From a virus, in IMG/VR virus record IMGVR_UViG_3300034101_003302, positions 1 to 57,273 of that record: DNA of 57,273 nucleotides. The stretch is one strand, 5' to 3'. Shown piece after piece: positions 722 through 57,168 of the stretch. The position numbers and the translations under genes are program-made. The stretch's first letter is position 1. Each line of letters opens with the position of its first letter. Under the pieces are notes generated by a model. The model did not search any database. It was not told where the DNA came from and was given only the letters and a program-made list of their open reading frames with translations.

Positions 722-1261
722 TTAAGGTGCTGTTGACGCCCCCCATGCTACACTAGAGATCTCTCTAGTATTTGTCAAGGAATTTGCATTCCAACTCTTA
801 CCTGAAGAACTTGACCATTTGTAAACCGCACTTCCATCACTTGCAGTATCAACCACAAAATAATATTTATATCCTTTTGCCGCTGCTTTTTGAGGAGTAA
901 GTTGATCAACATTATTTGTGATTGCATCAGGTCCAAATTGTGATAAAGTAAAGCTAAATTCTGGTGTTTGTACTATAGCCTTTCCTCCTTGAAACTTGAA
1001 TGGGTATTTACCTTTTTTAATGTATCCGCTAACTTTTAATCTCTTATTTTTATTTGCATCATTAAAAAATCCATACTGATATCCACCGTCAGGTGTTGAA
1101 GTAGGCATTACAACACCTAATAATCCTCTCATCCATGATACACTATAATTTCCAGGAACTGGAGCCAAAACATATTCTTCACTAAGTATGTTTCTTTCAC
1201 TAATAACTCGTCTTACAATTCTTGTAAGATCTGATTCTGTTAATCTAACGATTCTTTTCAT
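722..1261 (-). CDS. Leader-bearing phage protein, unknown function
   Basis: 179 aa. The N-terminus is a clear LTESDL-type leader (LTESDLTRIVRRVISE, about residues 5-21), ending in I-S-E with a second L-S-E a few residues on. The rest is a Gly/Ser/Tyr-rich globular domain of unknown function. The leader closely matches those at 55192 and 56530, although the bodies differ. By analogy with T4 capsid-targeting sequences it is probably packaged in the head and trimmed by the prohead protease; this is inference. Confidence 0.8.
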   Translation of the reverse strand: MKRIVRLTESDLTRIVRRVISERNILSEEYVLAPVPGNYSVSWMRGLLGVVMPTSTPDGGYQYGFFNDANKNKRLKVSGYIKKGKYPFKFQGGKAIVQTPEFSFTLSQFGPDAITNNVDQLTPQKAAAKGYKYYFVVDTASDGSAVYKWSSSSGKSWNANSLTNTREISSVAWGASTAP

Positions 1262-1303
1262 AATTTTAAATTTCTTTATTTGTTATTTTATTTTCTTTTT
1301 ATG

Positions 1304-1311
1304 ATAAATAT
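1304..1311 (-). promoter_or_regulatory. ATATTTAT element (putative late promoter)
   Basis: ATATTTAT in the coding direction, about 43 nt upstream of the start at 1261, a longer spacing than at most other copies in this window. Confidence 0.45.
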
Positions 1312-1338
1312 ATGGTTTTTTAAAAAAATTCAAAAATT

Positions 1339-1367
1339 AAAAAAAAAAGGGATCAGTAAACTGTCCC
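1339..1367 (-). terminator. Terminator of the large structured RNA
   Basis: On the minus strand AGGGACAGT pairs with ACTGATCCCT (one bulged base), followed by a run of about ten T. It is placed to end the RNA that starts near 2285. Confidence 0.8.
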
Positions 1368-2287
1368 TATTAAATTTTTTTCTTATAAAATGTATAATTA
1401 AAAAGAACGCTGAGATTACACGTTTTAATGAGAACCTTTAGAGTCATTATTTATTCTACTCTTATCCACTTCCTTTTGAGAAGTATTTCTCAGTGACGGT
1501 ATTTTAGGTTTACCACTCCTTGAGGTTTGAATTACTCTCATCTTACTTGACTCTTTCCGAGGATGCCTCCCCAGTTCGTCCTTGCGGGACTAAAGGTTTT
1601 TCGGATAATTACACTTAGACTTGGGATCCTTGTGTGCAATGAACGGCTCATTACTATGTAGTCACCTTTCATCCAAACCTGACGGACACTTTTCCTTTCT
1701 GTAGTTAATAATAGAATCATTACTTTCCATAAAGTATTTGTGTTGTGGATTGTGAAAGTAGTGGTCCGTCAACCAAGCCAACTCATCTTTTGAACGAGTC
1801 GATACTTAACTACTCTCTGAAATGTCCCCATCTCCATATTTCTAGACTACTTCAAAACAATTCCTTTGGTAAAGAATCATTAGGGTTTGTAACGGCACCA
1901 CCTGTACACAAACATACCTTTCGGTTTTAAGTATCCTATGATATTGGAACACGCAATAATAAAATTGGATAATTCTATTTTTTGCAATATTCCTACGAGT
2001 TATTCCTATTGGTGTTCCCACCTCAATCAGACGACCCACATCGCCCAATCACCTAACCACTTTCCCTACAGCGTTGCCCTCGGTACTAAAGGTTAAACGG
2101 TATCCCGCTTGTGTACTTAAGTTCAGTTACCTAAACCGCAAACTATTTACACGAATAGTTCACTTTATCCTGGTTTCCCAGTTTATTTAAAGACCATACA
2201 CGGCCTAATATCTTTTATCAGTTTCATTTCTTACTCCTGAATGGATATTCTATTTTCAAAGAACGTTTTCGGTCATTTCCGAATTGT
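1340..2287 (-). ncRNA. Large ornate structured RNA (GOLLD/ROOL-like candidate)
   Basis: About 0.95 kb with no plausible ORF, noticeably richer in G+C than the surrounding DNA, bounded by a host-type promoter and an intrinsic terminator. Hairpins read directly on the minus strand: a 5' stem TTCGG/CCGAA (2268-2283); CTGG-GAAA-CCAG (2170-2181) and GGTG-GGAA-CACC (2011-2022), both with GNRA tetraloops; AACTATT/AATAGTT (2141-2160); TACTTT-ATGG-AAAGTA (1721-1736); GTCC-CGCAA-GGAC (1578-1590); GAGAA-ATAC-TTCTC (1478-1491). Size, phage context and closeness to tmRNA/tRNAs resemble the GOLLD and ROOL classes of giant phage RNAs, but I cannot match a consensus by eye. It may be a new class. Confidence 0.75.
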
Positions 2288-3672: not shown

Positions 3673-4350
3673 TTAAACTTTTTTAACTAATGATCTTGAT
3701 ATTTCAGGTGGATCTAATCTACCTTGATCAAGAACTCTTAATACACCATCTTTTGTTCCCCAAACATCTAAACTAGAACATCTTGATATTTCTTTTGCTC
3801 CTTTATTATTTTTTAAACCATTAACAATACAATCATATCTACCATTTGTTAAAGTTTTTACTGTTGCGTCAATACCATCTTTTTCTGTTTTATAGTTTCT
3901 AACTCCACCAACACATTTATCTCCAGATTTTTTTAAACAATTCCAAAAAGTTGAGTCCGACATATCTTGAGTTGTATTAAATGGATTGTAAGTTGCTTTA
4001 GCACCTTCAGCCTGTCTCCACGCATAGAAGAAAGCCAAATTTTCTTTTGTAACAGGAGCATCAATCCTCTCTAAAACTTTTTTATAAAATTTTTCATCAT
4101 CGTCCGATGGTTTCTCAATTTTATATTTTTCATAATCTTTTGTTACCTCATCAGATTTATCACCCTTTTTTACTTCAAAATCATCTTCATCATCAAATTC
4201 AATCCCTGTTAATTCTTGAAATTTATTTTTTAATGTTTTAAATGTTTCTGATTTTTTAACCGCATCAATAGCATCGGTGAACCATCCTTCTTCTATTGAA
4301 TTCATTTTTCTTATTTTATTTTTTTCGGATTCTGAAATTAAATTTTTCAT
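3673..4350 (-). CDS. Leader-bearing lysozyme-like protein
   Basis: 225 aa. N-terminal leader (MKNLISESEKNKIRKMNSIEEG), then a charged linker rich in Asp/Glu/Lys (~45-85) and a C-terminal domain with FFYAWRQAEGAKATYNPFN, YKTEKDGIDATVKTL and NGRYDCIVNGLK. This arrangement (W-x-x-x-E-G...YNPF...Y...G..AT..TL..G.Y) is that of phage lysozyme/transglycosylase-like domains found in tail and virion proteins; the Glu after RQA is the likely catalytic acid. It is probably a virion-packaged muralytic enzyme, distinct from the leaderless endolysin at 4637. ATATTTAT lies 18 nt upstream. Confidence 0.65.
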   Translation of the reverse strand: MKNLISESEKNKIRKMNSIEEGWFTDAIDAVKKSETFKTLKNKFQELTGIEFDDEDDFEVKKGDKSDEVTKDYEKYKIEKPSDDDEKFYKKVLERIDAPVTKENLAFFYAWRQAEGAKATYNPFNTTQDMSDSTFWNCLKKSGDKCVGGVRNYKTEKDGIDATVKTLTNGRYDCIVNGLKNNKGAKEISRCSSLDVWGTKDGVLRVLDQGRLDPPEISRSLVKKV

Positions 4351-8788: not shown

Positions 8789-9394
8789 ATGTATACAAGA
8801 GAACAAATTGAAGCGGCCGTAAAGGCTAAGGGGTATGTTTGGTTTGAAGATACCTCAAACAAAAGTTACGATGTGAATATCGTAGGAGTAAGAAACAATG
8901 CACCTTCAGTTGCAAAAAAAGTAACTAACGTGTTTGATGATCACCTTACACTTTCATTTAAAGATGAAAAAGGTGTTTGGCAATACTATTGTTGGATGGC
9001 AACATGTGATCCAGGTAAAAAGGGAGTTCAACAATTCCACAACAAAAATGGTGTTGCAAGGTTAGTACCGGGACAATACAGAGGTGTATGGAAAATTGAT
9101 TTACATCAAGGTAAATATGAAGCGCTTTGTCAAAGAAATGGTAACGTAACTGTTTGGAGAGACGCAAACAAAGACTTAATTTTTGAAGAAACAAAAACAG
9201 ATACAGGTATGTTTGGTATTAACATTCACAAAGCAGGTCAAGATTCTCAGTGGGTTGAGAACTGGTCTGAAGGTTGCCAAGTATTTAAAAGAGTAAAAGA
9301 CTTTGATGTGTTTATGTCTTTATGTAAAAAGGCTTCAAAAATTTGGGGGAACAAATTTTCGTACACACTATTAGAATCTACAGATATTAAATAA
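8789..9394 (+). CDS. L,D-transpeptidase-like cell-wall protein
   Basis: 201 aa. The C-terminal half has GINIHKAG (His147) followed by WSEGCQVF (Ser160, Cys163), the H...SxGC arrangement of the YkuD/L,D-transpeptidase catalytic domain; similar domains occur in phages, where they may act as peptidoglycan peptidases. No signal peptide or leader. It overlaps the next gene by one base, forming a two-gene plus-strand unit ending in a strong terminator. It could process the peptidoglycan cross-link during entry or lysis; substrate unknown. Confidence 0.6.
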   Translation: MYTREQIEAAVKAKGYVWFEDTSNKSYDVNIVGVRNNAPSVAKKVTNVFDDHLTLSFKDEKGVWQYYCWMATCDPGKKGVQQFHNKNGVARLVPGQYRGVWKIDLHQGKYEALCQRNGNVTVWRDANKDLIFEETKTDTGMFGINIHKAGQDSQWVENWSEGCQVFKRVKDFDVFMSLCKKASKIWGNKFSYTLLESTDIK

Positions 9395-9936
9395 TGAATA
9401 AAAAAAGATTTTTTACTTTATTAGAATCCAAATCAGGAGATGTTAAACCTTTAATAACCGAAAATAAATTAAAGGATGAAAGTTATTTACGTAAAAAACA
9501 AGAACTTTTAGATTTTTTATTTACGGTTAATCTAACAACTGATGGTAGTTCCCAAAAAATTGATATTAATAAAGACGGTGAAATGGATAGCGAATTAATG
9601 ACATTTACCACAGGTAATGTTATTTTGTATTTAGGTGTTTGCAATTTTTCTAATGGAGATCTAAAATATCTTTGCTTTATAAAAACAAAACCTGATTACA
9701 ATACCATTTTAAAACCAACTTTTGTTGATACGTTAGATGATCTTGAGTCTGAGATTTTACCATATGTTGAGCAGTCTTACGAAGACACAAAACTTGATTA
9801 TCTTGGGGTTAATAATCAAAAAGAATATGAACCATCTAAAAATGAATATAATGATCTTTTAAATCAAGCAATAGATAATGAAGATTGGTTAGAAGCAAAA
9901 AGACTTCAAGATAGGTACGGTAATTTATATAGATAA
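9394..9936 (+). CDS. Leader-bearing protein of unknown function
   Basis: 180 aa. Leader-like N-terminus (MNKKRFFTLLESKSGDVKPLITEN) with LLE and LITE; the rest is an acidic, mixed alpha/beta protein with DINKDGEMDSEL (~49-60) resembling a Ca-binding loop, and a C-terminal acidic helix. The ATG overlaps the upstream stop (TAATG), implying translational coupling with the L,D-transpeptidase-like protein. No family recognised. Confidence 0.7.
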   Translation: MNKKRFFTLLESKSGDVKPLITENKLKDESYLRKKQELLDFLFTVNLTTDGSSQKIDINKDGEMDSELMTFTTGNVILYLGVCNFSNGDLKYLCFIKTKPDYNTILKPTFVDTLDDLESEILPYVEQSYEDTKLDYLGVNNQKEYEPSKNEYNDLLNQAIDNEDWLEAKRLQDRYGNLYR

Positions 9937-31714: not shown

Positions 31715-32010
31715 AATAATTCAGATTTAGGTAATTTATCTGGATATACAATATAATACTCATTCAAATATGTTAATAAAATATCTTCATCAATGGTTAC
31801 AAAATCATCAAAATCCTCATCATCGTCTTCATCAAGATCAAAATATTCATTTTCTTCTGTTATAATATCATAACCAAATTCTTTAGCTTCCTCTATTTTT
31901 AATATGTCTTGTCTAATTTCATCATCTGAATCAATTGTTAATCTAAAAGAAACATCGATTCTTTTAGTATCTTGATCAAAGTAATATGATAAAATTTCTT
32001 TTATTTCCAT
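31711..32010 (-). CDS. Acidic protein (99 aa)
   Basis: 99 aa, very acidic in the middle (NEYFDLDEDDDEDFDDFVTIDED). N-terminus MEIKEILSYYFDQDTKRIDV. No domain recognised. One base overlap with the gene upstream and 4 nt with the gene downstream; part of the translationally coupled operon. Acidic head-core or chaperone-like roles are possible. Confidence 0.65.
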   Translation of the reverse strand: MEIKEILSYYFDQDTKRIDVSFRLTIDSDDEIRQDILKIEEAKEFGYDIITEENEYFDLDEDDDEDFDDFVTIDEDILLTYLNEYYIVYPDKLPKSELF

Positions 32011-33368: not shown

Positions 33369-33377
33369 TAATTGATC

Positions 33378-36437: not shown

Positions 36438-36830
36438 TTACCAAGTTCTACAAGCCCAATATCTTGGTTTCCATCTTGGTCCTGGGTTATCACAATTATG
36501 TCTGGCTCTAAATGATCTTCTTCTTTCGGGGTTATTCTTTTTTATAACCATTCTTTTACCTTTTGCCGATTTACCACCAAAACCAAAATTAACTTTAACT
36601 ACCTTACCTTTATCGTTTTTAACATAAACTTTAAATTTTTTTATGTCTCCTTGCATAATTTTACCAAGTTGGACATTTCTACCTTGATATTGTGCTTCAT
36701 GTAATATATTAACTTCCTCAACAGATCCGTATATGTCCTCATATAAAATATTAAAAAATTCTTCCTTTATTATTTTATGTAATAATCTTTTTATTGTCGA
36801 CTCATTTATCATATTAAATATTTTATTCAT
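36438..36830 (-). CDS. Leader-bearing protein with C-terminal SFRARHNC...YWACRTW module
   Basis: 130 aa. Leader MNESTIKRLLHKIIKEE at residues ~8-24, then a small beta domain (KKFKVYVKNDKGKVVKVNFG) and a basic C-terminal signature RRRSFRARHNCDNPGPRWK followed by RYWACRTW. This tail occurs, as far as I recall, in conserved proteins of T4-like and other large phages linked to head/scaffold genes. The leader plus head-linked tail supports a virion location. ATATTTAT immediately precedes the ATG. Confidence 0.7.
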   Translation of the reverse strand: MNKIFNMINESTIKRLLHKIIKEEFFNILYEDIYGSVEEVNILHEAQYQGRNVQLGKIMQGDIKKFKVYVKNDKGKVVKVNFGFGGKSAKGKRMVIKKNNPERRRSFRARHNCDNPGPRWKPRYWACRTW

Positions 36831-36883: not shown

Positions 36884-37414
36884 ATGAGAATGCATAGAAT
36901 TTCAGAATCAGATATTAGAAGAATCGCCAATAGAATTTTAAAAGAGGAAGATTCAGAAACAAAAAGAAAAAAAGAAGAGGTAAAACCAAGATGTGTACGT
37001 GAAAATGTTATTCCTTTAGATGAAATAGTTGGTAGAGCGGAAGAATATGGTAGATATTCACCAGGTATATCAAAAAGACAATCAGGAGTAAACTCAATGG
37101 TTGATACATTAGGTATATTAAATAACATTAGACTATTTAAAGATGTTAAAGATGGTGGTTCTCATTTGGCTTATGAAATGATGAATAATCTGAACAGATT
37201 TAGAAATAAAAATTATCATGATGAGACTACCGGAGAGTGTCATAAAGCTATGGATAAAATAATTGAGTTATATAAAGAAAATGAACATGGTACAGAACTT
37301 GTTAAAGATATAGAAAGAGTTTTAAATCTACAAACAAGAGAGGATGAATATACCCCATCTCCAAGAGCAAAAGAATATCTTAAACAATGTATTAATTTAG
37401 TTAAAGGACAATAA
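36884..37414 (+). CDS. Leader-bearing protein (176 aa)
   Basis: 176 aa. Leader ISESDIRRIANRILKEE (residues ~5-21) is an LTESDL variant ending I-L-K-E-E. The rest is helical and charged with a conserved-looking SGVNSMVDTLGILNNIRLFK segment; no family recognised. Followed by a perfect palindrome and a terminator. Confidence 0.72.
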   Translation: MRMHRISESDIRRIANRILKEEDSETKRKKEEVKPRCVRENVIPLDEIVGRAEEYGRYSPGISKRQSGVNSMVDTLGILNNIRLFKDVKDGGSHLAYEMMNNLNRFRNKNYHDETTGECHKAMDKIIELYKENEHGTELVKDIERVLNLQTREDEYTPSPRAKEYLKQCINLVKGQ

Positions 37415-41956: not shown

Positions 41957-43669
41957 TTATGTTCTATAGTTACCAAATATTCTTCTTCTATCCTTACTAC
42001 CCCATAGTCTTTGTTGCCTATTATATCTAAGATTTTGTTTCCACTGAGACATGGGTGAGTTATAGTTTTTAAATAATCCTCTTTTTAGATAAACAGATTT
42101 ATTAACTCTAGGAGGTGTATACTCAAAATTTATTTTAAAGTTAGAATCTTTTTTACCAACAAACCCTAAACTTATTACTTTTTGTTCTATTTGACCTTTT
42201 AATAAATTTACAGCGGGGTTTTTAACTTTTTCATAGATCTGAATAGATAAACCTATTGTAAATTTAGCATATTGTCCTGGATTTGGGTATTTTGATTTAT
42301 CTTTAGTGGTATCTTGATCTGTTTTTCCTCCTGTATCTGTAATTCTATATTCCATTTGTATGTCATTAGCATAATCAAAACTTTTAATTAGACCTATTGC
42401 GGTATTTTTTTCAAACTCACCTAAAACCGCCTGTACTAATTTATTACCTCTACTTTTTGCTAATTTAAAATTTTTAAAATTATTACCTAAAGAACTTAAA
42501 TCTGTTATTTCTTTAACTTTTGTTTCATCATTATTGTGTGTAAAATCTAAAACTTCTCCCGCGTCCCAAGTATTACTTGCAGATGAAATAGAAGAGATGT
42601 CTGAAATACTAATATCAAAACTTTCGTTACATCTTTGTTCACCACAATCAATCATTTCTTTTATTGTCATTGTTTTTTTAGTTCCTGAGTCCGTATCAAA
42701 AGTAACGCTTGTTGCGTATATCTTATCATATAATGTTTTCATAACTCCAGGTAATGACGATGATGGGTCGTCTTTACCTGGTTGATAATTTAAAGGAATT
42801 TTGTCTATTACAACTTCGGAACTAACAGATCTAAATCCTGTTGATTCTGGTTTTGTTTCTTTAGCGTCTATAGGTACAGAAATATGAGAAAACATAGTAC
42901 TCATTTTATTTTTTGATTGTGGTATTATCTCGTATTCAGTTGGCTCCTTTTTTGTCCATTTAAATAAACTTCCTTGTATACCTACTATTGTCTCCCATTT
43001 ACTATTATTATCGTTTACAATTTGTAAACCTTCATTTAATGACGTTTCTATCTCTTCCAATACAGAAATATCCCCAGTATTTGGTACTGACAATTTTATT
43101 GTACCATAATCTTTTCCGTCAGTTGATTGATCAACATCACTTACACTAAAAGCCCACCTTTGTGATTTTTTAAAGAATCTTCTTACTTTTCTTAGATATT
43201 TTTTATCCATTCTAAGATTACCAACACTATAATCTTGTTTTTGAATTAATACTTGTAATGCATCAAAAAACCCATTAGCTAAATTAAGTTTTACATCACT
43301 TGGTAATGCTTTATAATCTTTATCACCAATTTCCGCATTCATTTTTTCTAAAATGTCGCCAGAAGTGTTAAGTTCTTTATTTAATTCTCTTGAATATTCA
43401 AAACCAATACCTAGCTCTAATGGAGTTCTTTGAACTCCTTGATAATTAAATTTTTGTCCTCCTAATTTTGCACCAATAGTTCCTTTTACAGTTTTTGTTT
43501 TTGGGTCTGTTGTTTGATCTGTAGTAACATCATAGTCATCTGTTTCTGTTGCATCATCAACATCGTCAAACTCATCTTCTTTTATTATTTTTTGTTCTGA
43601 AATTACAACGCCTTTTTTATAACCAAAAAGGTATTTCATATAGTTTAATTCTTCATTTATATTTGACAT
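41957..43669 (-). CDS. Large leader-bearing protein (570 aa)
   Basis: 570 aa. Leader NEELNYMKYLFGYKKGVVISEQ (residues 4-26) is almost identical to that of 44336. An acidic linker follows (EDEFDDVDDATETDDYDV), then a long alpha/beta body and a basic, Arg-rich C-terminus (KQNLRYNRQQRLWGSKDRRR) that could bind DNA. Probably a packaged internal protein. ATATTTAT 15 nt upstream. Confidence 0.72.
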   Translation of the reverse strand: MSNINEELNYMKYLFGYKKGVVISEQKIIKEDEFDDVDDATETDDYDVTTDQTTDPKTKTVKGTIGAKLGGQKFNYQGVQRTPLELGIGFEYSRELNKELNTSGDILEKMNAEIGDKDYKALPSDVKLNLANGFFDALQVLIQKQDYSVGNLRMDKKYLRKVRRFFKKSQRWAFSVSDVDQSTDGKDYGTIKLSVPNTGDISVLEEIETSLNEGLQIVNDNNSKWETIVGIQGSLFKWTKKEPTEYEIIPQSKNKMSTMFSHISVPIDAKETKPESTGFRSVSSEVVIDKIPLNYQPGKDDPSSSLPGVMKTLYDKIYATSVTFDTDSGTKKTMTIKEMIDCGEQRCNESFDISISDISSISSASNTWDAGEVLDFTHNNDETKVKEITDLSSLGNNFKNFKLAKSRGNKLVQAVLGEFEKNTAIGLIKSFDYANDIQMEYRITDTGGKTDQDTTKDKSKYPNPGQYAKFTIGLSIQIYEKVKNPAVNLLKGQIEQKVISLGFVGKKDSNFKINFEYTPPRVNKSVYLKRGLFKNYNSPMSQWKQNLRYNRQQRLWGSKDRRRIFGNYRT

Positions 43670-44335: not shown

Positions 44336-44890
44336 TTAAAATTCTCTTTCTTTTTGGAATAGACTTTTTATTTCTTTACCTAAAGATAAAAGGCTACTAC
44401 CTAACATTACCCAAATAGAAGCTTGACCTGAAATTGTTTTCTTTTCTGTTGTTGCTTTAACCGATAATGCCAATAATTGACCTTTTATTTTATCACATTC
44501 TAAATACTCCTTACCTGTTTTTGATTTACAACTCAAACATTTTTCAATAACCGATTCTTTTAAACGACCAACCTCTAAATTTTTTAACATTTCCCCACAA
44601 GGTCTACATTTATCATTATTTTGAGTACAAATGTCATTAGTAATAGTTTCTATTATTTTTTTTGGGTCGGTTTCTTTTTCGGATGGTTTAACGGGTTCTG
44701 TGGTTGCGGGTATTACAGTATTTGTTTGAGGTGCATTAACGGGTTCTGTGGTTGCGGGTATTACAGTATTTGTTTGAGGTGCAATAGTTGTAGATGTTGT
44801 TGTAGTTTCTTGTTCAGAAATAACAACACCTTTTTTATAATCAAAAAGATATTTTATATAATTTAATTCTTCGTTAATATATTTTTCCAT
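44336..44890 (-). CDS. Leader-bearing protein with Pro/Thr repeats and C-terminal membrane helix
   Basis: 184 aa. Leader NEELNYIKYLFDYKKGVVISEQ as in 41957, then a Thr-rich stretch and two perfect 16-aa repeats (APQTNTVIPATTEPV), a Cys-containing core (CTQNNDKCRPCGEMLK, CLSCKSKTG) and a C-terminal hydrophobic/amphipathic helix (ASIWVMLGSSLLSLGKEI). The repeats act as a linker. Probably a packaged protein that anchors in membrane. Confidence 0.7.
   Translation of the reverse strand: MEKYINEELNYIKYLFDYKKGVVISEQETTTTSTTIAPQTNTVIPATTEPVNAPQTNTVIPATTEPVKPSEKETDPKKIIETITNDICTQNNDKCRPCGEMLKNLEVGRLKESVIEKCLSCKSKTGKEYLECDKIKGQLLALSVKATTEKKTISGQASIWVMLGSSLLSLGKEIKSLFQKEREF
44688..44783 (-). repeat. 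Two tandem 48-bp repeats
   Basis: Perfect copies at 44688-44735 and 44736-44783 inside the 44336 gene, each encoding 16 aa; likely recent duplication of the linker. Confidence 0.9.
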
Positions 44891-45612: not shown

Positions 45613-46119
45613 TATGTTACTTAATAACCAATTCATAATAAATTCAGATTTTTTACTATCAAAAATTATTTTAATGTAATTGTTACAAACAAAATAAAAT
45701 TTATTTATTAATTTTTTAAATTTATTCTTATCTGCCATTTTTAAGTTAGTTAATCTAACTATAATTTTGTTAATTGATGATAAATAATTTTTAGTGTAAT
45801 TTAATTTAACAGAATCTATTTTTTTAATATATGAATATGTACTCTCAAAAGAATATTTATTAACCAATGATTTATTATTTTTTAAATAATTCATTATTTC
45901 ATTTTTTAAATTTAATATACCAGATTTAGAACCCTCAATTAATTTTAAAACATCTTTTCTAACTTTACCATCCATACTGTTATATACATCAAGATTTAAT
46001 CTACGAAAATATTCGTTTATTATTTCTTTTGCACTTTTTAGTTCCGAATATAATAAAGATATTCTTTTTAATGTGTCATTATATAAGTTATCAATATTTA
46101 TGTTTTCCGCTACACCCAT
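45598..46119 (-). CDS. Helical protein (173 aa)
   Basis: 173 aa, MGVAENINIDNLYNDTLKRI...: almost entirely helical and Lys/Asn-rich with regular heptads. Starts 10 nt inside the upstream gene (46110). Last gene of the long operon that begins at 51741. Unknown function; no clear leader. Confidence 0.62.
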   Translation of the reverse strand: MGVAENINIDNLYNDTLKRISLLYSELKSAKEIINEYFRRLNLDVYNSMDGKVRKDVLKLIEGSKSGILNLKNEIMNYLKNNKSLVNKYSFESTYSYIKKIDSVKLNYTKNYLSSINKIIVRLTNLKMADKNKFKKLINKFYFVCNNYIKIIFDSKKSEFIMNWLLSNINPQN

Positions 46120-46424
46120 AAGTCACAAATTATTTTTCTTCTAATCCATACAGAAGGATTTTTTCCCTTTTTACTTAACTTATCTACTAAATATTTTATT
46201 TTATCATTAACATCTGATTTAAATTTAGACATATCTCCACCTGATTTTTTTATCTTTATTTCAATGGAGTTCCAAATTTTATCTAATTTACTTTCTAATT
46301 TAGAGTCATCTTTGTTTAATTTTTTTATTTCATTAGTTTCATCAATAAAAGATGTATCATTATAAATTAATGATTCGTTTATTACATATTTTTTTAAAAT
46401 ATTTTTAATAATTCTTTTATTCAT
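46110..46424 (-). CDS. Leader-bearing small protein (104 aa)
   Basis: 104 aa. Leader MNKRIIKNILKKYVINES, ending I-N-E-S; then a charged helical body (DDSKLESKLDKIWNSIEIKI) ending NPSVWIRRKIICDLWV. ATG overlaps the upstream NlpC/P60 stop by one base. Confidence 0.68.
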   Translation of the reverse strand: MNKRIIKNILKKYVINESLIYNDTSFIDETNEIKKLNKDDSKLESKLDKIWNSIEIKIKKSGGDMSKFKSDVNDKIKYLVDKLSKKGKNPSVWIRRKIICDLWV

Positions 46425-47077
46425 TATGATAATCTACCGTATCCTGCTATTTTATTTCCCCAATAAGAGCTTTTATTAACTCCATTTTTTGTATAATTTG
46501 TTTTTTCTGTATCTTGTATGCCTGACGATGAAGATGCGTGTACCATATGAAAAATTTTTTCTCCTTTTTCGTTTTTTCCTACGTTTGAAACTAAACCAAT
46601 ATGGCTTATTTTCCCACCATCTTTAAAAAATACTAAATCTCCAGGTTTTATATCATTTATAGTAAGTTTAGTAACTTTAGGTGAATTATAAATACCTGAT
46701 GCTGTTCTTGGTATAGTTTGGTCACTTACGCTTGATAAGATCCCAACCTGAGTTAATAAAAATCTAATAAATCCACTACAATCAAAAGATTTAGGTCCTT
46801 GTGATCCATACACATATGGAATACCTAAATAATTTTTAGATAATTCAACTATTTGTGGTTCAACATTATTAGATTCATTTTGATCTAAGTTTTCCTGATT
46901 TTCTGTTGTTGTGGTAGTAACAATATTTTTATGTTCTTCAGACCCATCATTCAAATCAGGAGAATCCATAATAGTTCTATTATATGGTATTTGACTGTCC
47001 TGCTCATTTAATGAAAACTCAATAGAGTTATACATTCTAAGTATTCTTCTTTTTTCGTTATTTGATATTTTTTTCAT
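46424..47077 (-). CDS. Leader-bearing NlpC/P60 endopeptidase
   Basis: 217 aa. Leader MKKISNNEKRRILRMYNSIE...LNEQ (residues 1-26), Thr/Asn-rich linker (~50-72), then an NlpC/P60 domain: GIPYVYGSQGPKSFDCSGF with Cys100, GDLVFFKDGGKISHIGLV with His159, FHMVHASS with His180. Cleaves peptide stems of peptidoglycan (typically D-Glu-diaminopimelate bonds). With a leader instead of a signal peptide it is probably carried in the virion and used at entry. All catalytic residues present. Confidence 0.88.
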   Translation of the reverse strand: MKKISNNEKRRILRMYNSIEFSLNEQDSQIPYNRTIMDSPDLNDGSEEHKNIVTTTTTENQENLDQNESNNVEPQIVELSKNYLGIPYVYGSQGPKSFDCSGFIRFLLTQVGILSSVSDQTIPRTASGIYNSPKVTKLTINDIKPGDLVFFKDGGKISHIGLVSNVGKNEKGEKIFHMVHASSSSGIQDTEKTNYTKNGVNKSSYWGNKIAGYGRLS

Positions 47078-47079: not shown

Positions 47080-47370
47080 CTAATATTCTGGAAAAGTTGA
47101 TTTACCTATTTTTAATCCTTTTGGTAAATCAAGATCATCTAATGATCTTGGTCTTTGGACTCTTTTTATTTTCTGAGGATTATACTTATGATTTAACCTA
47201 TTTAATTCTATTTTGTATGGATTACCAAATTCATTTAATCTATTAATAACGTCGTCTATTAGTTCAGTTTTTTCTGATGCTGATATTCCGGTCACAAAAT
47301 CATCATTTTCATTAATAATTCTTCTTATAACTCTTATTAATTCACTTTCTGTTAGTTTTATCTCTCCCAT
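47080..47370 (-). CDS. Leader-bearing small protein (96 aa)
   Basis: Start at ATG 47370 (MGEIKLTESELIRVIRRIIN), since an upstream TTG would overlap the neighbouring stop. Leader LTESELIRVIRRIINE is a close LTESDL variant ending I-N-E. The body is short and basic with a Pro/Arg-rich piece (KVQRPRSLDDLDLPKG region). Lies between M23 and NlpC/P60 peptidase genes. Confidence 0.7.
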   Translation of the reverse strand: MGEIKLTESELIRVIRRIINENDDFVTGISASEKTELIDDVINRLNEFGNPYKIELNRLNHKYNPQKIKRVQRPRSLDDLDLPKGLKIGKSTFPEY

Positions 47371-47371
47371 C

Positions 47372-48109
47372 TTAATCAAAAATATTTTTTATTTTATCGA
47401 AAAATACACTTCCAACCTTTTTCATTTTATCCCACAAATCAACTTCATCTTCAGCCTTAATGTCACCTTCTTCTGTTTTTTCTTCAGGGCTAAAAAACTT
47501 TTTAAAGTAATTTTTAAATTTACTACCAAGGTCTTCATATTCTAAATCAGAAGGTTTTTTTGGTTTTTTATCTATAGCACCTTTTAATATATCTAAAGGG
47601 TCTTCACCTGAGTAAAAACCACCACTTGTTTTATAAATGTTATAATGTAAATGTGGTGCGGTTCCTTTAGCGTTTCCTGAATCACCTAAAGTACCAACCT
47701 GTTGTCCGGCAAATACAAAATCACCTTCTTTAACTGTAATAGAATCTAAATGTCCTAACCAATGTGAAAATCCTGTTTCAGGATCTTCTACAATAACGGT
47801 TAATCCATTACCACCAAATTTAACTTTTCCATCTACAGGAGCTAGTATTGCGGTTCCTCTAGGTCCAAAAATATCAACACCAATATGTCCATTTAAATGT
47901 CCTCCAGCACCGGCGTATGTTGGTTGTCTTGAGAAATCTGTATTTGCAGTACCTCTTGGGTTACTCCAATCATCCCATTTTTGATCCCAACCTATATTAT
48001 ATCTACCCCCATCTATTGGAAATGCATCTAAATCAGGTAATGATTCATTTATACCGTGAGATCTTAAAATGTGTTTTTTTTCCTCTTCAGAAATTATTAA
48101 TTTTTTCAT
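47372..48109 (-). CDS. Leader-bearing M23 metallopeptidase
   Basis: 245 aa from ATG 48109; a longer frame to 48136 exists, but a GTATTTAT element at 48125 favours the shorter form. Leader MKKLIISEEEKKHILRSHGI-NES. M23 (lysostaphin-type) domain: HLNGHIGVD (His75, Asp79), GFSHWLGHLDSI, and PHLHYNIY (His153, His155) complete the zinc site. Cleaves peptidoglycan cross-bridges or stem peptides. Acidic C-terminal tail. Paired with NlpC/P60 in the same operon as packaged wall hydrolases. Confidence 0.88.
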   Translation of the reverse strand: MKKLIISEEEKKHILRSHGINESLPDLDAFPIDGGRYNIGWDQKWDDWSNPRGTANTDFSRQPTYAGAGGHLNGHIGVDIFGPRGTAILAPVDGKVKFGGNGLTVIVEDPETGFSHWLGHLDSITVKEGDFVFAGQQVGTLGDSGNAKGTAPHLHYNIYKTSGGFYSGEDPLDILKGAIDKKPKKPSDLEYEDLGSKFKNYFKKFFSPEEKTEEGDIKAEDEVDLWDKMKKVGSVFFDKIKNIFD

Positions 48110-48124
48110 AAAAAACGTTTTTAT

Positions 48125-48132
48125 ATAAATAC
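48125..48132 (-). promoter_or_regulatory. GTATTTAT element (putative late promoter variant)
   Basis: Coding-direction GTATTTAT 15 nt before the M23 gene ATG at 48109. Confidence 0.45.
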
Positions 48133-48166
48133 TCAAACATTTTAAAATATCTTTTTTAATTAAAAA

Positions 48167-49901: not shown

Positions 49902-50312
49902 TTAAACCCCAATAATATCTTTTATATTAATACCTGCAGCCTCCCCTGGCCATGTATCATGGTTTTTTGGATAATTATATCTAACATTCTTAGGCACTCT
50001 ATCGTATATTAAACCTATACTATCTTCTAATACGTCACCAAGACCTGTATCACTGAGACCATCAAAAGGATTATCATCATAATCATCCGCAATTTTAAAA
50101 TTATACATTTCTTTATAATTTATATATAACGTTAAGGATATTATATGAAATCCTTTATTTTCAGATCCAGAAGCTTTATAACCATCAATAACTATTTTTT
50201 TAATAAATGGATATCTTTCATATACCATATCTTTAAACAAATCAAATCCAAAATCATATTTGGTTTTATTTTCCAAAAGTCTATATTGATTTTCTGTGAT
50301 TATTATTCTCAT
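49902..50312 (-). CDS. Leader-bearing protein, IIITENQY type (136 aa)
   Basis: 136 aa. Leader MRIIITENQYRLLENK, same family as 33378, 50312 and 51166. The body is a compact alpha/beta domain (KKIVIDGYKASGSENKGFHI, ISLTLYINYKEMYNFKIADD) of unknown function. ATG overlaps the upstream stop by one base. Confidence 0.68.
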   Translation of the reverse strand: MRIIITENQYRLLENKTKYDFGFDLFKDMVYERYPFIKKIVIDGYKASGSENKGFHIISLTLYINYKEMYNFKIADDYDDNPFDGLSDTGLGDVLEDSIGLIYDRVPKNVRYNYPKNHDTWPGEAAGINIKDIIGV

Positions 50313-51169
50313 TACCCAAAAACTACTTCACCCATTACACAAAGTTGTAAAAATACATCAGCATCTCCAGCGTCTTCTTGCTCAAGTAATATATTTTCCC
50401 AAATGTGAGGATATTCTTTTTTTATTATTGTTATTGCTTCTAATATTTTGTCCATAGTAACAAAACCTAAATACGTTTCTTCTATGTCTTCATTAAATCT
50501 TTTTTGATCTATTATATCTCCTTCTATTGTATATTCTCCTTTTTTTAGGTTATACATTATTTCAGATCTTAATTCATCATCGTAAAAATATATTTTACCT
50601 CCCTGTAGAATGTATTCACCCACAGCTTCAGAAATTGATTGACCATAACTTTTTATGTTGTCAGGTAAATCCATATAATACCAGTAGTTAGATCCCCCTT
50701 CTAATGCGGTTACAAATAAATTAATAATGTCTTCTTTACCTAAAGATCTGTTTAATGCCTGTTCTTTATATCTATTATATCTAAAAGAATAACCAGCACC
50801 TCCCGCACTATATAAGTGCCATTCCATAGATCTTTTTTTCCACTCCTCAAAATTGAAATTCTCAAGGCTATTTTTTAGTCTCTCTAGTTCTTTTTTCTTT
50901 GGTTCAACAAAGTCTTTAATTATATATTCCCTAACTCTTTCATCACCAATTTTAGAATAATCGTAATTTAAAAGTTTATAAACTTCTTCTTCTAATTCTT
51001 TTATATTGGACTTTAATCTTTCAAGACTATCCTTAGTTTCTTCTTCTGCAACCTTCTCAACTTCACGCATTTCACTGTCAGTTAATCCATACTGGTTAAG
51101 TTCCTCAGTTTCATTTAGGAATTTTTTTTGTAATGTGTGATATTGTTCTTCTGTTATTATTATTTTCAT
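50312..51169 (-). CDS. Leader-bearing protein, IIITEEQY type (285 aa)
   Basis: 285 aa. Leader MKIIITEEQYHTLQKKFLNE ending L-N-E, then a charged coiled coil (~30-110) and an alpha/beta C-terminal domain with many Tyr (GGSNYWYYMDLPDNIKSYGQ). Overlaps the gene upstream by 4 nt and the one downstream by 1 nt. Unknown function; candidate packaged protein. Confidence 0.68.
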   Translation of the reverse strand: MKIIITEEQYHTLQKKFLNETEELNQYGLTDSEMREVEKVAEEETKDSLERLKSNIKELEEEVYKLLNYDYSKIGDERVREYIIKDFVEPKKKELERLKNSLENFNFEEWKKRSMEWHLYSAGGAGYSFRYNRYKEQALNRSLGKEDIINLFVTALEGGSNYWYYMDLPDNIKSYGQSISEAVGEYILQGGKIYFYDDELRSEIMYNLKKGEYTIEGDIIDQKRFNEDIEETYLGFVTMDKILEAITIIKKEYPHIWENILLEQEDAGDADVFLQLCVMGEVVFG

Positions 51170-51741
51170 ACTCCCCTAACATAGTTAAATACTTCCTCAC
51201 ATTTTTCGGCCAGTATTTTTAGATAATCATTATTTATCCATTTATATATTTCATTAAAACTATCAAATTGTGTTGGTACTTCTTCACTATAATAATATTC
51301 TCCACTTATTTCTTCATCATTTTGATCCCCAAAACTATCGGTCCAAATATAATAATCAAAATCTATAGGTAAGTAGCAATTACCATCCCAATATGGAGTT
51401 GCGTACCCAGTTAAAGAGTCTTCATAATAAGGATTTCCTAATTCTTTACAGCTAAAAAACAAAGAACCTCCCATTTCATCAAAACCAAAATTAAACCTAT
51501 AATTTTTATATGTTTTAACATTATTATTCAAATCTCTTCTAAAATTTTCATGATGATAAATTATACCATACAAATCATCGCAAGTTATTTCAGGTAATTC
51601 TTCTCCTTTGAATATAAAAGACAAAGCTTTTAAATTTAAATTATATCTTCTTAAGGTTTCGTACAAACCATTTTCCTCAATAGAAATTGACAAAGTTTTT
51701 CTTAGATCGTTAAGTTGGTTTTCTTTTAGAAGAATTTTCAT
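51166..51741 (-). CDS. Leader-bearing protein, ILLKENQL type (191 aa); first gene of long operon
   Basis: 191 aa. MKILLKENQLNDLRKTLSIS is a variant of the IIITExQY leader. The body is Asp/Glu/Tyr-rich (HHENFRRDLNNNVKTYKNYR, SGEYYYSEEVPTQFDSFNE). ATATTTAT 4 nt upstream, so it starts the operon that runs through the peptidase genes down to 45598. Confidence 0.68.
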   Translation of the reverse strand: MKILLKENQLNDLRKTLSISIEENGLYETLRRYNLNLKALSFIFKGEELPEITCDDLYGIIYHHENFRRDLNNNVKTYKNYRFNFGFDEMGGSLFFSCKELGNPYYEDSLTGYATPYWDGNCYLPIDFDYYIWTDSFGDQNDEEISGEYYYSEEVPTQFDSFNEIYKWINNDYLKILAEKCEEVFNYVRGV

Positions 51742-53165: not shown

Positions 53166-53852
53166 TTAAGACATAATTGGTTTAGAAATATCAGAAGGTA
53201 TTTGAGGAAAACCTAATCTATCTAATTCAGTATTTATTTTTGTAAATGTTTCACCTAAATATCCAGATAAATTACTTGATAAATTTTTACCTATAACGTT
53301 ATTATTTAATTGTGATGGCATCTCTACCTTCTTTGAATCATCTAAAACATAAAGTCCTATAGGATAAGCCTTTTTCCATGTTTCATTACTTGTCCAAAAA
53401 TCGCCTTTTAAATAAGTTTGAAACTTTCCGCTTTTTCTTTGTGTTATAAAAATTTGTAATGCGGTAAAAGCTCCTTGTGCTCCAGGAATAGTTACATTAA
53501 TATCAATGACACATCCGAATCTACCTGATCTAGCTGATTCATTGTCTGTTAAATTTTTAAGTTGTAATTTTTCTCTGTAATTTGCGTCAATAGTTGCACC
53601 AATTAATAATGATAACCTTTGATTTTGTGAGGTAACATAAACTTGTTTACCATTAAAAAGAAAATTAGAGGCAGGTATTTTTGTTGTTATGTTTTTAGGT
53701 GAATTAGGATCGGTCCCATTAGGTTTTACATTTACCCAAACATCCGATTGCTCATTCAGTAAATCATATTTATTATTTTCAACTATTAACCTTGTTTCAA
53801 GTATTCTATTTGATTCTTGTATATGCCTTATTTTACTATAACTCTTATTCAT
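53166..53852 (-). CDS. Leader-bearing member of the tandem paralogue family (228 aa)
   Basis: 228 aa. N-terminal segment ends LIVENNKYDLLNEQ (L-N-E-Q), body beta-rich, with the C-terminal family signature FTKINTELDRLGFPQIPSDI. The same C-terminal pattern (NTELD-x-x-G[FY]-x-x-[IF]-P) is present in the four downstream-numbered genes up to the window end. Unknown function; CTATTTAT lies upstream. Likely packaged virion protein. Confidence 0.7.
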   Translation of the reverse strand: MNKSYSKIRHIQESNRILETRLIVENNKYDLLNEQSDVWVNVKPNGTDPNSPKNITTKIPASNFLFNGKQVYVTSQNQRLSLLIGATIDANYREKLQLKNLTDNESARSGRFGCVIDINVTIPGAQGAFTALQIFITQRKSGKFQTYLKGDFWTSNETWKKAYPIGLYVLDDSKKVEMPSQLNNNVIGKNLSSNLSGYLGETFTKINTELDRLGFPQIPSDISKPIMS

Positions 53853-53867
53853 AAAAAATATTTTATT

Positions 53868-53875: not shown

Positions 53876-53896
53876 TAAAATATATAAAAAAAAGTT

Positions 53897-53926: not shown

Positions 53927-53953
53927 TATTATAAATAATTAAACATAATACCC

Positions 53954-54457: not shown

Positions 54458-54459
54458 AT

Positions 54460-54490
54460 AAACCCCCCTTTAGTGGGGGTTTTTATTTTG
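54460..54490. terminator. Bidirectional terminator
   Basis: AAACCCCC / GGGGGTTT with T-run, between convergent genes 53954 (+) and 54483 (-). Confidence 0.88.
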
Positions 54491-55181
54491 GTTCTTCTTT
54501 TGATAAATATGATATTTGTTGGAATCCTGCAGCATCTAGCTCTGTGTTCATCTTTGTAACAATATCATTTAATGGTGTATAATTTTTATACCCAGGAAGT
54601 AATCTGTAAGTTATAAAATTACCTAAATTATTATAAAGATCACCTCGATTAACTTTTTTAAGATAACTAGTGTCATTTGAATCTTTTGCCGGATAAACAG
54701 GCATAGATTTCCATTGAGCAGTCCATCCACCATTAATATATGTTAATGGTACTACGGCATACTTTCCGCTTTTTAATAATGCAGCGTTTACCACAGCCAT
54801 TGTTGCGGGTTTTGAAGCTCCTGTAGAGTTAATATAGAATTCAGCATAATAGTTAAATCTTGATGTTCCCATACTATTGCTTGGGGCAATTTGATACCCA
54901 ACATTAACGTTATAATACATCCATAATTTTGCCCCAACAGATAAAAATTCACTTTTTCCTCCGGTAGAATCGTTTAATGCCAATGTTAATCCTGTATTTG
55001 GATCCTTTAGTTCTTGCATTGGGTAATCAATTATTTTTTGTTTTGCCTTACTTTTAGGGTCAACCGTTTGTAATTTACTCCAATAGTCTTCATTCTGTTC
55101 TTTAATTAAAGGATAAATAACTCCATGTTGAGCCTCCATAAGGTTCAACATTCTTTTTATATTTTCATTTATTGTTTTCAT
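54483..55181 (-). CDS. Paralogue family member with NEN-type leader (232 aa)
   Basis: Start at ATG 55181 (MKTINENIKRMLNLMEAQHG); a Met at 55205 would overlap the upstream gene. Leader type NEN...RMLNLM...LIKEQ, as in 55832, on a body whose C-terminus (VTKMNTELDAAGFQQISYLS) belongs to the same family as 55192 and 56530, which carry LTESDL leaders. Beta-rich, secreted-like body of unknown function. Confidence 0.7.
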   Translation of the reverse strand: MKTINENIKRMLNLMEAQHGVIYPLIKEQNEDYWSKLQTVDPKSKAKQKIIDYPMQELKDPNTGLTLALNDSTGGKSEFLSVGAKLWMYYNVNVGYQIAPSNSMGTSRFNYYAEFYINSTGASKPATMAVVNAALLKSGKYAVVPLTYINGGWTAQWKSMPVYPAKDSNDTSYLKKVNRGDLYNNLGNFITYRLLPGYKNYTPLNDIVTKMNTELDAAGFQQISYLSKEEPK

Positions 55182-55191
55182 ATTTTTTAAA

Positions 55192-55827
55192 TTAAACAAC
55201 TCCATTTCCTTTAGGGAAAGGAGGATATCCCATTTTTTCTAACTCAGTATTTGCACTATCTCTTAAACTTTGTGGTATCCACATGCTATTTGCAGAAATA
55301 TTATCTGCCAATTGACCTAAAGGTTGATTAAATGATTTTTTAGGGTCTTTAGGTGAACCCCAATATAATATTTGATCATATTTAACATTTTGCATTTTTT
55401 GAGCTTGTGATACCCATTTACCACCATATTTAAAAACATTAAAACTTAAAAACATATAACCATTTGCGTTACCCGCAACACTAACATTTTTTCTTACACT
55501 ATCGAATGTTCCTCCAGGATTTTTTGTTAAATAAAAAGTTACAAAATATTTAAATCTACTATCACTTGTTGGTTTAACTTTAGGTCTATAAATTGCACTA
55601 ATGTTAAAACCAATATTCCATTTATATAATTCTTGACCTACCATTTGTTGTAGTTGTAATCCATTTTTAGGATGTATAAAAGGTACTGAAGGGAAATCTT
55701 TTTCTAATCTTGATTCTGTTGTACCATTATTTGTATGTTGGTTCCAAAACTGATCATTCTGTTCTTTAATAACTTTTCTTACAATTCTTGCAAGATCTGA
55801 TTCTGTTAGTCTTATTATTTTTTTCAT
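55192..55827 (-). CDS. Paralogue family member with LTESDL leader (211 aa)
   Basis: 211 aa. Leader KKIIRLTESDLARIVRKVIK followed by E-Q. Next comes the shared FWNQH-type start of the mature domain, FVTFYLTKNPGGTFDSVRKN in the middle and the C-terminal signature SANTELEKMGYPPFPKGNG. Four nt separate it from the upstream gene. Mature form after E-Q cleavage would start at QNDQFWNQH. Confidence 0.72.
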   Translation of the reverse strand: MKKIIRLTESDLARIVRKVIKEQNDQFWNQHTNNGTTESRLEKDFPSVPFIHPKNGLQLQQMVGQELYKWNIGFNISAIYRPKVKPTSDSRFKYFVTFYLTKNPGGTFDSVRKNVSVAGNANGYMFLSFNVFKYGGKWVSQAQKMQNVKYDQILYWGSPKDPKKSFNQPLGQLADNISANSMWIPQSLRDSANTELEKMGYPPFPKGNGVV

Positions 55828-55831
55828 AGTT

Positions 55832-56533
55832 TTAAACTTTTACTAAATTACCTGATAAATCTAAAGTTTTTGGGAATTGTGGATACCCATAAGCATCTAA
55901 ATCTGTGTTTATTAATTTTATTAAATCTGGACAATAACCCACAGGGTTATCTTTAAATTTAAATTGTATTCTATTTATATTGGCTTGATTTTCAATGGTT
56001 CTTGTGGTGTCAGTATTATTTTTTAAAGAATAAATTAAATTTGATGCATTTTGATATTCTCTATTATACCCTGTTGAAATATAAAATGAGTTGGTTGCAA
56101 GTAATCTACATGTTCCGTAAGATAATCCTGGAAAACCTCTGTTCATAAGTTCATTATAAGTTGCGTCTTTATCATAAGAAAGAAATATATTAAAATAATA
56201 TAAAAATCTTTTACTTTCATTCCATGTTTTAGAAATTTTCCCTAATTTATCATATACCATAACTATAGTCGCTCCAACGTATACAGGTATCATTATATCT
56301 TTTTGTTGATTATCCCAACTTTTTATATAAAATTGTAATCCATTTCTTGGATCAATTAAACTATAAGATGCGTTATAGTTTTTATTTACAACTTTTTTAC
56401 TATCTGAACTTCCTCCTTGTACTGGTACTGACTCCCAAGCCGCCGATTGTTCATTTATTAAATTATGAGTTATGATTTTGTTAGATCCCATTAGATTTAA
56501 CATCCTGTTTACATTTTCATTAAGTGTTTTCAT
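55832..56533 (-). CDS. Paralogue family member with NEN-type leader (233 aa)
   Basis: 233 aa. Leader KTLNENVNRMLNLMGSNKII...LINEQ. Body with GLQFYIKSWDN, YYFNIFLSYDKDATYNELMN and C-terminal IKLINTDLDAYGYPQFPKTL. ATG overlaps the upstream stop (ATGA at 56530-56533). Confidence 0.72.
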   Translation of the reverse strand: MKTLNENVNRMLNLMGSNKIITHNLINEQSAAWESVPVQGGSSDSKKVVNKNYNASYSLIDPRNGLQFYIKSWDNQQKDIMIPVYVGATIVMVYDKLGKISKTWNESKRFLYYFNIFLSYDKDATYNELMNRGFPGLSYGTCRLLATNSFYISTGYNREYQNASNLIYSLKNNTDTTRTIENQANINRIQFKFKDNPVGYCPDLIKLINTDLDAYGYPQFPKTLDLSGNLVKV

Positions 56534-57168
56534 ATTTTTTCTGATATTTTTGGATATCCTATTTTTTCTAATTCAGTGTTTATTTGTGTTAATAAATTAT
56601 TAGGTATTTCACTTGTTGAATTTTTTATTTTTTGTACCATTTGTGGTCCATTATATTGTGGACCTAAATTTGTTCTAAAAATATTTGTAGTATCTGTTTG
56701 GTCTTTTAAATTATAATAAAAACTTCCATTCATAACTTGATAACAAGAAAATGTCATTAGACTTATCATAGGAGTTTTAGGTCCACTACTAGTTGGTCCC
56801 ATTATTGATAAATCTTTTCCTGTTTTTCCTGGTGAATCAGAAAGAAACAATTCTAAATTATAATAGAATCTATCATTTATTGGTGTTTTTGTGTTATATT
56901 TCTTGTCAGGATCAAATTTAGCAGATAAAGTGGCCCCTATGTACCATTTTTGTGTTGCATTTTTTTCCATGTTTGATCCACCACTAGTAAAATATTGGTT
57001 ACCTTCTTTATTTACAAAAGGAACACTAGCAAAAAATTTAGTATAATCTCTTTTAGATAGAGGGAATGCTTTGGCATGATCGGACCAAAACTGCTCATTT
57101 TGTTCTTTTATTACTCTTTTAACAATTCTTGCTAAATCTGACTCTGCTAATCTTATTATTTTTTTCAT
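56530..57168 (-). CDS. Paralogue family member with LTESDL leader (212 aa)
   Basis: 212 aa. Leader KKIIRLAESDLARIVKRVIK followed by E-Q, then EQFWSDHAK, parallel to 55192 (QFWNQH). C-terminal signature LLTQINTELEKIGYPKISEK. ATG overlaps the stop of the partial gene upstream (57165). Unknown function. Confidence 0.72.
   Translation of the reverse strand: MKKIIRLAESDLARIVKRVIKEQNEQFWSDHAKAFPLSKRDYTKFFASVPFVNKEGNQYFTSGGSNMEKNATQKWYIGATLSAKFDPDKKYNTKTPINDRFYYNLELFLSDSPGKTGKDLSIMGPTSSGPKTPMISLMTFSCYQVMNGSFYYNLKDQTDTTNIFRTNLGPQYNGPQMVQKIKNSTSEIPNNLLTQINTELEKIGYPKISEKI

Follow-up and report, generated by a model that had tools for sequence, protein, structure and literature searches.

The closest described counterpart of the proteins analyzed here is the set of internal proteins (IPs) of bacteriophage T4, in which IPI-IPIII and Alt combine a short N-terminal leader and a site ending in glutamate with an S77-type prohead protease, a gp23-type capsid protein and unrelated cargoes (PMC9026906, PMC12373910; here and below, papers are cited from the portions of their text available to us). 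The T4 IP leaders span 10-19 residues, the first 10 residues of IPIII are sufficient for incorporation, and the gp21 protease cuts at L/I-x-E (PMC9026906), while the leader is all that the IPs have in common (PMC12373910). The same set of features is found in a phage group represented by IMG/VR virus record IMGVR_UViG_3300034101_003302, the whole 57,273-base stretch of which (hereafter, the window) was analyzed, and in which many proteins start with one of several short amphipathic segments (hereafter, leaders). Our analysis indicates that the window very probably derives from a huge Bacteroidota phage related to T4, and that its leaders are very probably T4-style capsid-targeting propeptides in an expanded and diversified form.

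T4 itself encodes three IPs together with Alt, and the T-even phages as a whole are reported to have at least 10 IPs (PMC9026906, PMC12373910), whereas 35-53 proteins with leaders of six families were called per genome in the window's group. The group also resembles phiKZ, 201phi2-1 and SPN3US, which have large genomes and many head or ejected proteins cut after glutamate by a gp21-like protease, including 19 processed proteins in 201phi2-1 and nine protease substrates in SPN3US (PMC9026906, PMC10052503). However, phiKZ cuts at S/A-x-E, and the N-terminal propeptides of SPN3US are mostly long (111-254 residues), with two short ones of 20 and 24 residues (PMC9026906, PMC10052503). The available portions of these two papers describe no shared short leader families for the three phages. 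What differs from known capsid targeting is apparently the scale and the diversity of the leaders, as the T4 trick itself is known.

Relatives of 35 of the 74 window open reading frames (ORFs) of at least 70 amino acids were found in at least one of five contigs of 292-318 kb (G005, G007, G011, G013 and G014); elsewhere, none had a relative in T4, four had one in the cultured Flavobacterium phage vB_FspM_immuto_2-6A (NC_055915; hereafter, immuto), and three had one in Microcystis phage Mel-JY01. Within each genome, all proteins were compared with one another, and non-homologous pairs reaching a score of 50 or more were counted separately for residues 1-40, residues 41-80 and the last 40 residues. 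The window gave 10, 0 and 1 such pairs, respectively, and the counts in its relatives were 129/3/1 (G007), 78/2/4 (G013), 52/3/3 (G011), 108/5/3 (G005) and 57/6/2 (G014). The comparison phages gave 7/3/1 (T4), 10/1/0 (immuto) and 7/4/0 (Mel-JY01). Apart from the leader shared by IPII and IPIII (MKTYQEFIAE/A; here and below, a slash marks the site), the T4 N-terminal pairs listed mainly joined homologs, homing-endonuclease-like or otherwise; the recovery of the IPII/IPIII pair served as the positive control of the comparison.

Clustering of N-termini defined six recurrent leader families: A (KKIIRLTESDLxRIVRRVIxE), B (MKIIITESQYxxLxE), C (MNLQENIxRIxxMMGVIxE), D (MKxLIKxILRE), E (ISEEEKNRILxLHExATKRxYLSEQ) and F (NEELNYMKYLFGYKxGVVISEQ). 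Part of the N-terminal signal comes from signal-peptide-like starts, which make up a cluster of nine proteins (219, 53954 and seven others). Sec-type signal peptides were considered as the identity of the leaders and rejected, as they form this cluster of their own. The mean maximum amphipathic moment was 0.497 for leaders, vs. 0.377 for internal segments and 0.394 for other N-termini.

Hidden Markov models (HMMs) of the six families called leaders on 16 of the 74 window ORFs, and on 48 (G013), 53 (G007), 36 (G011), 47 (G005) and 35 (G014) ORFs of the relatives, with 0-1 matches in residues 71-140 of the same proteins. The models matched no ORF in T4, none in Mel-JY01 and one in immuto; since no T4 ORF was matched, sequence kinship of the group's leaders with the T4 leader is not established. 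A tblastn search of named phages with one 25-amino-acid leader gave no match. Over a wider set of loci, leaders were called on 715 of 3448 ORFs, against 18 control matches in twice as many residues of protein bodies. Most loci of this set were fetched for having leaders, and HMM counts over loci are biased upwards because the training loci were mostly found through leaders A and F; the position controls and internal controls are free of this bias. Calling over the 3448 ORFs also differed slightly in stringency from per-genome calling, as illustrated by G007 ORF 149774 (the same as L185:205-663), called only in the former.

Of 139 matches to a type A regular expression, 137 lay within the first 40 residues. 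Type A was confirmed in at least 492 of 599 candidate viral-contig stretches and type F in 114 of 232. Of 42 candidates that a tighter type A query picked out in prokaryote genomes (one per species, 84,980 species), one was confirmed; as this query differs from that of the viral scan, the counts of the two scans are not comparable. The possibility that the leader is a motif of host genomes was rejected, the sole confirmed match being a 4-kb contig (L302) of an Alphaproteobacteria metagenome-assembled genome. This contig has three leader-like ORFs by eye, two resembling type A and one type D, and is probably a phage contig binned with that genome.

These results bear on an earlier, first-pass annotation of the window, which had listed ten leader-bearing ORFs and put their total above 20. 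Nine of the ten were called by the HMMs; the remaining one, 55832, is supported by alignment with its paralogs. Together with weaker cases assigned by clustering, alignment or eye (36438, 46110, 53166, 55832, 9394 and 29055), the 16 called ORFs bring the total to about 22. The description of these proteins as unrelated holds in part: leaders are shared among non-homologous proteins above the level of the internal controls, but five of the proteins (53166-57168) are tandem paralogs. The search of related phages that the annotation had proposed recovered leaders in each of the five relatives.

The ends of the leaders resemble a prohead protease site. The motif [ILVMF]xE was scored in a leader-end window and in an equal window 60 residues further in, giving 40 vs. 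10 of 43 leaders for type A, 26 vs. 5 of 26 for D, 17 vs. 7 of 19 for C, 10 vs. 2 of 10 for F, 32 vs. 11 of 36 for E and 63 vs. 16 of 90 for B. Summed over the six types, 188 of 224 leaders had the motif, against 51 of 224 control windows. Because the seed patterns of A, D, E and F demanded the glutamate, the comparison is partly circular for these four types, a problem that does not affect B and C. The residue that follows is frequently Q or E in type A, E in D and Q in F, whereas in type E the seed itself demanded Q.

A protease that could cut at such sites is encoded by the relatives. Sixteen long leader-bearing contigs were picked by size, and Peptidase_S77 (PF03420, above the cut-off) was detected in 14 of them, as was gp23. 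Histidine and serine at T4 positions 85 and 140, which we take to be the catalytic residues of gp21, are kept in all eight proteases aligned (five of the group, T4, immuto and Mel-JY01). In addition, all 14 capsid proteins of the leader-bearing contigs have a LINE-A site near residue 60, which fits the L/I-x-E pattern of T4 gp21 (PMC9026906).

A tie between leader and protease comes from a basic HVA1-like protein of the window (36438..36830, minus strand), in which the leader MINESTIKRLLHKIIKE and a spacer precede a predicted final site, LHE/AQYQGRNV, assigned by alignment. This protein has matches in 18 named phage records, six of which were examined. In Kolga, HTVC202P and CRP-902 the HVA1 protein has no leader, a single residue preceding the domain (M/AKYQGR, M/AKYKGR and M/ATYKGK, respectively), and no Peptidase_S77 match was found in these three genomes. 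In C48C1, HTVC008M and immuto, Peptidase_S77 is present and the HVA1 domain is preceded by 27, 47 and 90 residues, ending in LTE, LEE and LDE, respectively. Within the window's group, [IL]xE stands directly before the domain (xE/A) in 14 of 14 ORFs, the window's included. Taken together, the six-phage comparison and the group ORFs suggest that the extra segment occurs together with the protease and ends where that protease would be expected to cut. It should be noted that the sample is small and that the three protease-bearing phages all have T4-type head genes, so common descent may explain the pattern.

Leaders and bodies also vary separately. Among 431 body families, leaders occur in 123, of which 41 also include leaderless members; two or more leader types were found in 17 of the 431. 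The clearest swap places a type B or a type C leader before a near-identical body, with the two proteins alike from the glutamate on (RLQKE/GLHDTSW and GVINE/GLHDTSW). Likewise, a thioredoxin motif was found in five ORFs, with leader A on one (L023:8676-9059) and none on the other four. In the window, five tandem paralogs, all on the minus strand, have different leaders and, in the alignment, an invariant E-Q junction. The first (53166..53852) has a divergent leader ending LLNE/QSD and was assigned by alignment, with no HMM call. The second (54483..55205; NENIKRMLNLM...LIKE/QNEDYW) gave a weak type F match (E = 0.041) and aligns with the others. The third (55192..55827; ...RIVRKVIKE/QNDQFW) and the fifth (56530..57168; ...RIVKRVIKE/QNEQFW) carry type A leaders supported by both HMM and alignment, and the fourth (55832..56533; NENVNRMLNLM...LINE/QSAAW) rests on alignment, having no HMM call. 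In a comparison anchored on the site, pairs of different type scored lower in the leader (27.9 vs. 83.1), although this test is partly circular, as types were defined by leader sequence, and several sites were visibly misplaced. In these sequences, the leader is separable from its cargo, a homologous body being found with another leader or with none.

Upstream regions link the leader genes to virion genes. The motif TATTTAT lies within 60 nucleotides upstream of 53% of 235 leader genes and 53% of 47 virion genes (assigned by similarity to immuto), vs. 14% of 43 early genes (replication and nucleotide metabolism; Fisher p = 1.5e-6 for leader vs. early genes), 22% of 1320 other genes and 4-8% in mononucleotide shuffles. 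It precedes nine of the 16 HMM-called leader genes of the window; of the remaining seven, one sits at the window end and six closely trail a same-strand gene. No HMM-called leader was found on the 47 core virion homologs or on the 43 early homologs. TATTTAT is a candidate late promoter of this phage group, and its sharing suggests late co-expression of leader and head genes.

We infer from this evidence a mechanism in which many proteins of these phages start with propeptides acting like the capsid-targeting sequences of the T4 internal proteins. During head assembly, and with genes expressed late, the leader would bind the prohead core and bring its protein inside. Cleavage by the gp21-type protease, just behind the glutamate of the [I/L/V]-x-E site, would follow, and the mature protein would stay in the head beside the DNA and would probably be injected when the next host is infected. 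The lists given here may overstate the true payload, since a leader alone is no proof of packaging, or understate it, since divergent leaders may escape the HMMs. A more elaborate version, which we regard as doubtful though conceivable, is a multi-address packaging code, in which distinct leader families would dock on different core proteins or layers and load 35 to more than 50 proteins per virion in a set arrangement, later to be injected in the manner of secretion-system effectors. The payload would then comprise wall hydrolases, small enzymes (for example, thioredoxin and pterin dehydratase) and many unassigned proteins, perhaps with anti-defence roles.

Several observations weigh against the propeptide interpretation. 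Counted over all window proteins, the bare motif [LIV]xE is only mildly enriched (53% at residues 11-30 vs. 25-31% deeper), and at residues 11-30 it reaches 34-43% in the relatives and 27-32% in T4, immuto and Mel-JY01, a frequency that proves little. The residue that follows the glutamate is A or G in the capsid and HVA1 sites but Q or E in many leaders; in addition, Smith-Waterman alignments, used to ask if homology begins at the site, were non-discriminating (12 of 40 ends near a site, 18% by chance). In the clearest leader swap, one partner has QKE rather than I/L-x-E, and the 90 residues that precede the immuto HVA1 domain are too long for a simple short leader. In the site-anchored comparison, pairs of different type also score lower in the body (2.55 vs. 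3.67 per residue), and two of the 14 such pairs are really alike in the leader. The window record itself has no Peptidase_S77 match, and two long contigs (274 and 183 kb), which may be fragments, have neither Peptidase_S77 nor gp23. The other 14 contigs are not all independent, their capsid proteins being identical in G001 and G004 and in G008 and G010. More generally, orthologs from related genomes are not independent, a weak point of the counts, and the TATTTAT figures mix orthologs of five genomes (G005-G014). Finally, leader-bearing hydrolases match tail, lysis and head families of the PHROGs database over their enzyme domains, and the tail matches make a tail location possible for some of them.

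The last point would suit leaders that are virion-assembly tags, docking proteins on the head core, portal or tail and mostly left uncleaved, with an incidental xE ending. Under this explanation, [LIV]xE would be a chance occurrence, as it is in 25-32% of internal windows, and the weakest type, B (IIITExQY), indeed has no [ILVMF]xE near the end in 27 of 90 leaders; the NlpC/P60 and M23 proteins do have tail matches, and sharing an upstream motif with virion genes would fit any virion protein. However, xE exceeds the control window at the leader ends of every one of the six types, B and C among them, for which the seeds made no demand for E, and the capsid protein of the same phages bears LINE-A. 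Moreover, the conserved HVA1 body begins one residue after the glutamate, at the very residue where the three protease-free phages begin with M-A. We therefore consider uncleaved tags unlikely. Short basic amphipathic N-terminal helices serve as generic targeting signals, so that the leaders could instead send proteins elsewhere in the infected cell, to a phage compartment, a membrane or an export pathway. We hold such a cellular address to be very improbable, given that Sec-type N-termini cluster apart, that all 43 replication and nucleotide-metabolism homologs are without an HMM-called leader, and that the tie of HVA1 to Peptidase_S77 points to the head, though no search aimed at a phage-nucleus shell protein was made. 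Least credible of all is that the similarity plays no part in targeting and is left over from duplication and recombination of gene starts, the first codons being shared along with the promoter and start region. Many leader genes do stand in tandem runs with similar upstream regions, and some of their bodies are paralogs, but leaders are kept at the protein level across hundreds of contig stretches and many different bodies, homologous bodies can carry leaders of different types, the leader ends show a site of the protease type, and immuto has leader families of its own.

Capsid-targeting propeptides thus remain our preferred explanation, and the first-pass annotation, which had proposed it, gains from the protease found in relatives, the capsid site, the HVA1 comparison and the motif shared with virion genes, all of them features read from sequence. 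The annotation had named the lack of a T4-type prohead protease as grounds for abandoning the idea; the relatives, where this was examined, mostly encode one. Its notion of interchangeable leaders is borne out by the 17 body families and the five window paralogs. Its statement that leaders often end in [I/L/V]-x-E stands for the excess at leader ends in all six types, but not for the bare motif or for the IIITExQY type, which often lacks the site.

The remaining leader-bearing ORFs of the window lie on the minus strand unless stated otherwise, and their leaders were called by HMM except where noted. Type A leaders were found at 722..1261 (MKRIVRLTESDLTRIVRRVISE/R, followed later by ILSE/E, on a body with no assigned function and with TATTTAT at most 60 nucleotides upstream), at 36884..37414 on the plus strand (MRMHRISESDIRRIANRILKE/E) and at 47080..47379 (IKLTESELIRVIRRIINE/N). 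Type B leaders begin the ORFs at 33372..33998 on the plus strand (NIIITESQYKYILLE/E, also recovered by N-terminal clustering), 49902..50312 (MRIIITENQYRLLE/N), 50312..51169 (MKIIITEEQYHTLQKKFLNE/T) and 51166..51741 (MKILLKENQLNDLRKTLSISIEE/N). Type E is represented at 3673..4350 (MKNLISESEKNKIRKMNSIEE/G, E = 0.0048, with TATTTAT upstream), at 32010..32624 (MGNYFLNITKQEKQNILDKHKTVYDGFVTE/Y), and on two hydrolases: an NlpC/P60 protein at 46424..47077 (NNEKRRILRMYNSIEFSLNE/Q), identified by Pfam and matching tail-protein PHROGs over that domain too, and a peptidase M23 at 47372..48136 (MKKLIISEEEKKHILRSHGINE/S), identified by Pfam and PHROGs. Two type F leaders precede different bodies, one of 570 amino acids at 41957..43669 (NEELNYMKYLFGYKKGVVISE/Q) and another at 44336..44890 (NEELNYIKYLFDYKKGVVISE/Q; HMM and cluster). 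The first of these has matches in three viral-contig loci, confined to the leader in two of them and covering residues 1-65 in the third. A probable leader was recognized by eye, with no HMM call, at 46110..46424 (MNKRIIKNILKKYVINE/S). Possible leaders assigned by N-terminal cluster, also with no HMM call, occur at 9394..9936 on the plus strand (MNKKRFFTLLE/SKSGDVKPLITE/N) and at 29055..31472 (MNNIDEVIKKSLSLISYDRSKHITE/Q, on an 805-amino-acid body). An AlphaFold2 model of the third tandem paralog, 55192 (five sequences; mean predicted local distance difference test score, pLDDT, 69.3), places the leader inside a predicted helix spanning residues 2-31, with block pLDDT values of 43-72 over residues 1-40, and the model had no PDB or BFVD match at E ≤ 0.001.

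Few named families were recognized among the proteins behind the leaders. The window, G007 and G013 together have 117 HMM-called leader proteins, and Pfam and PHROG scans covered 114 of them, three proteins that cross piece borders being left out. Pfam assigned 20 families, each in one or two members, including peptidoglycan hydrolases, LysM, pterin dehydratase, GNAT and others; leader C, for instance, is found on two pterin-4a-carbinolamine dehydratases. PHROGs gave 46 families, with endolysin, peptidase, tail and minor head among the matches listed. When 10 of the 114 proteins were checked, the tail and minor-head matches traced to the NlpC/P60 and M23 proteins of the window. In a 458-amino-acid leader-bearing protein of G013 (L198:9108-10484), residues 135-284 weakly match a PHROG of head maturation proteases (E = 1.5e-6).

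The window also encodes 22 transfer RNA genes, clustered at 10959-19071 with small ORFs between them. Two further features were noted: a 748-amino-acid protein (38426-40672) that combines a signal-peptide-like start, a PKD-like domain and a CHU_C type IX secretion signal, unusual in a phage, and a GAF/PAS/HATPase histidine kinase gene that adjoins a response-regulator-like gene, the latter recognized by eye (6147-8721). Regarding the phage group, a bS21 ribosomal protein gene (PF01165) is present in 10 of the 16 long leader-bearing contigs. In G007 this gene (156097-156255) is embedded in the head-gene module, where the protease, the scaffold-like protein and the capsid protein are encoded on the other strand. 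The same kind of module, with bS21 on the opposite strand to the terminase, portal, prohead protease and capsid genes, was described in phages with genomes of up to 331 kb predicted to infect freshwater Bacteroidetes; the available portion of that paper describes no leader system in them (PMC9723584).

The cultured relative, immuto, which grows on Flavobacterium sp. LMO8, resembles the group in having S77 and gp23, and shows shared N-termini of its own on nine proteins (MENFDLKKFLVEN..., MKKQILSEQF...IITE and MKKSxLxxxIKE). Its leader sequences are different from those of the group, and such proteins are fewer, the count of nine being a minimum at the score applied. We found no earlier account of shared leader families in these phages in the literature searched, which lay mostly outside subscription papers and was available in part; the hyphenated term "capsid-targeting" was not found in PMC13282480, PMC12363816 or PMC7824862.

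In T4, internal proteins that carry leaders of this kind inhibit restriction enzymes of the host (PMC12373910). If our interpretation is correct, the leader lists would therefore be a source of candidate anti-defence proteins of Bacteroidota phages. The leaders would likewise provide a testable set for studying how prohead cores select their cargo. More broadly, the leader would be a label, readable from sequence, of the proteins that a huge phage brings into its host, and would point to dozens of candidate injected proteins in phages that are yet to be cultured.

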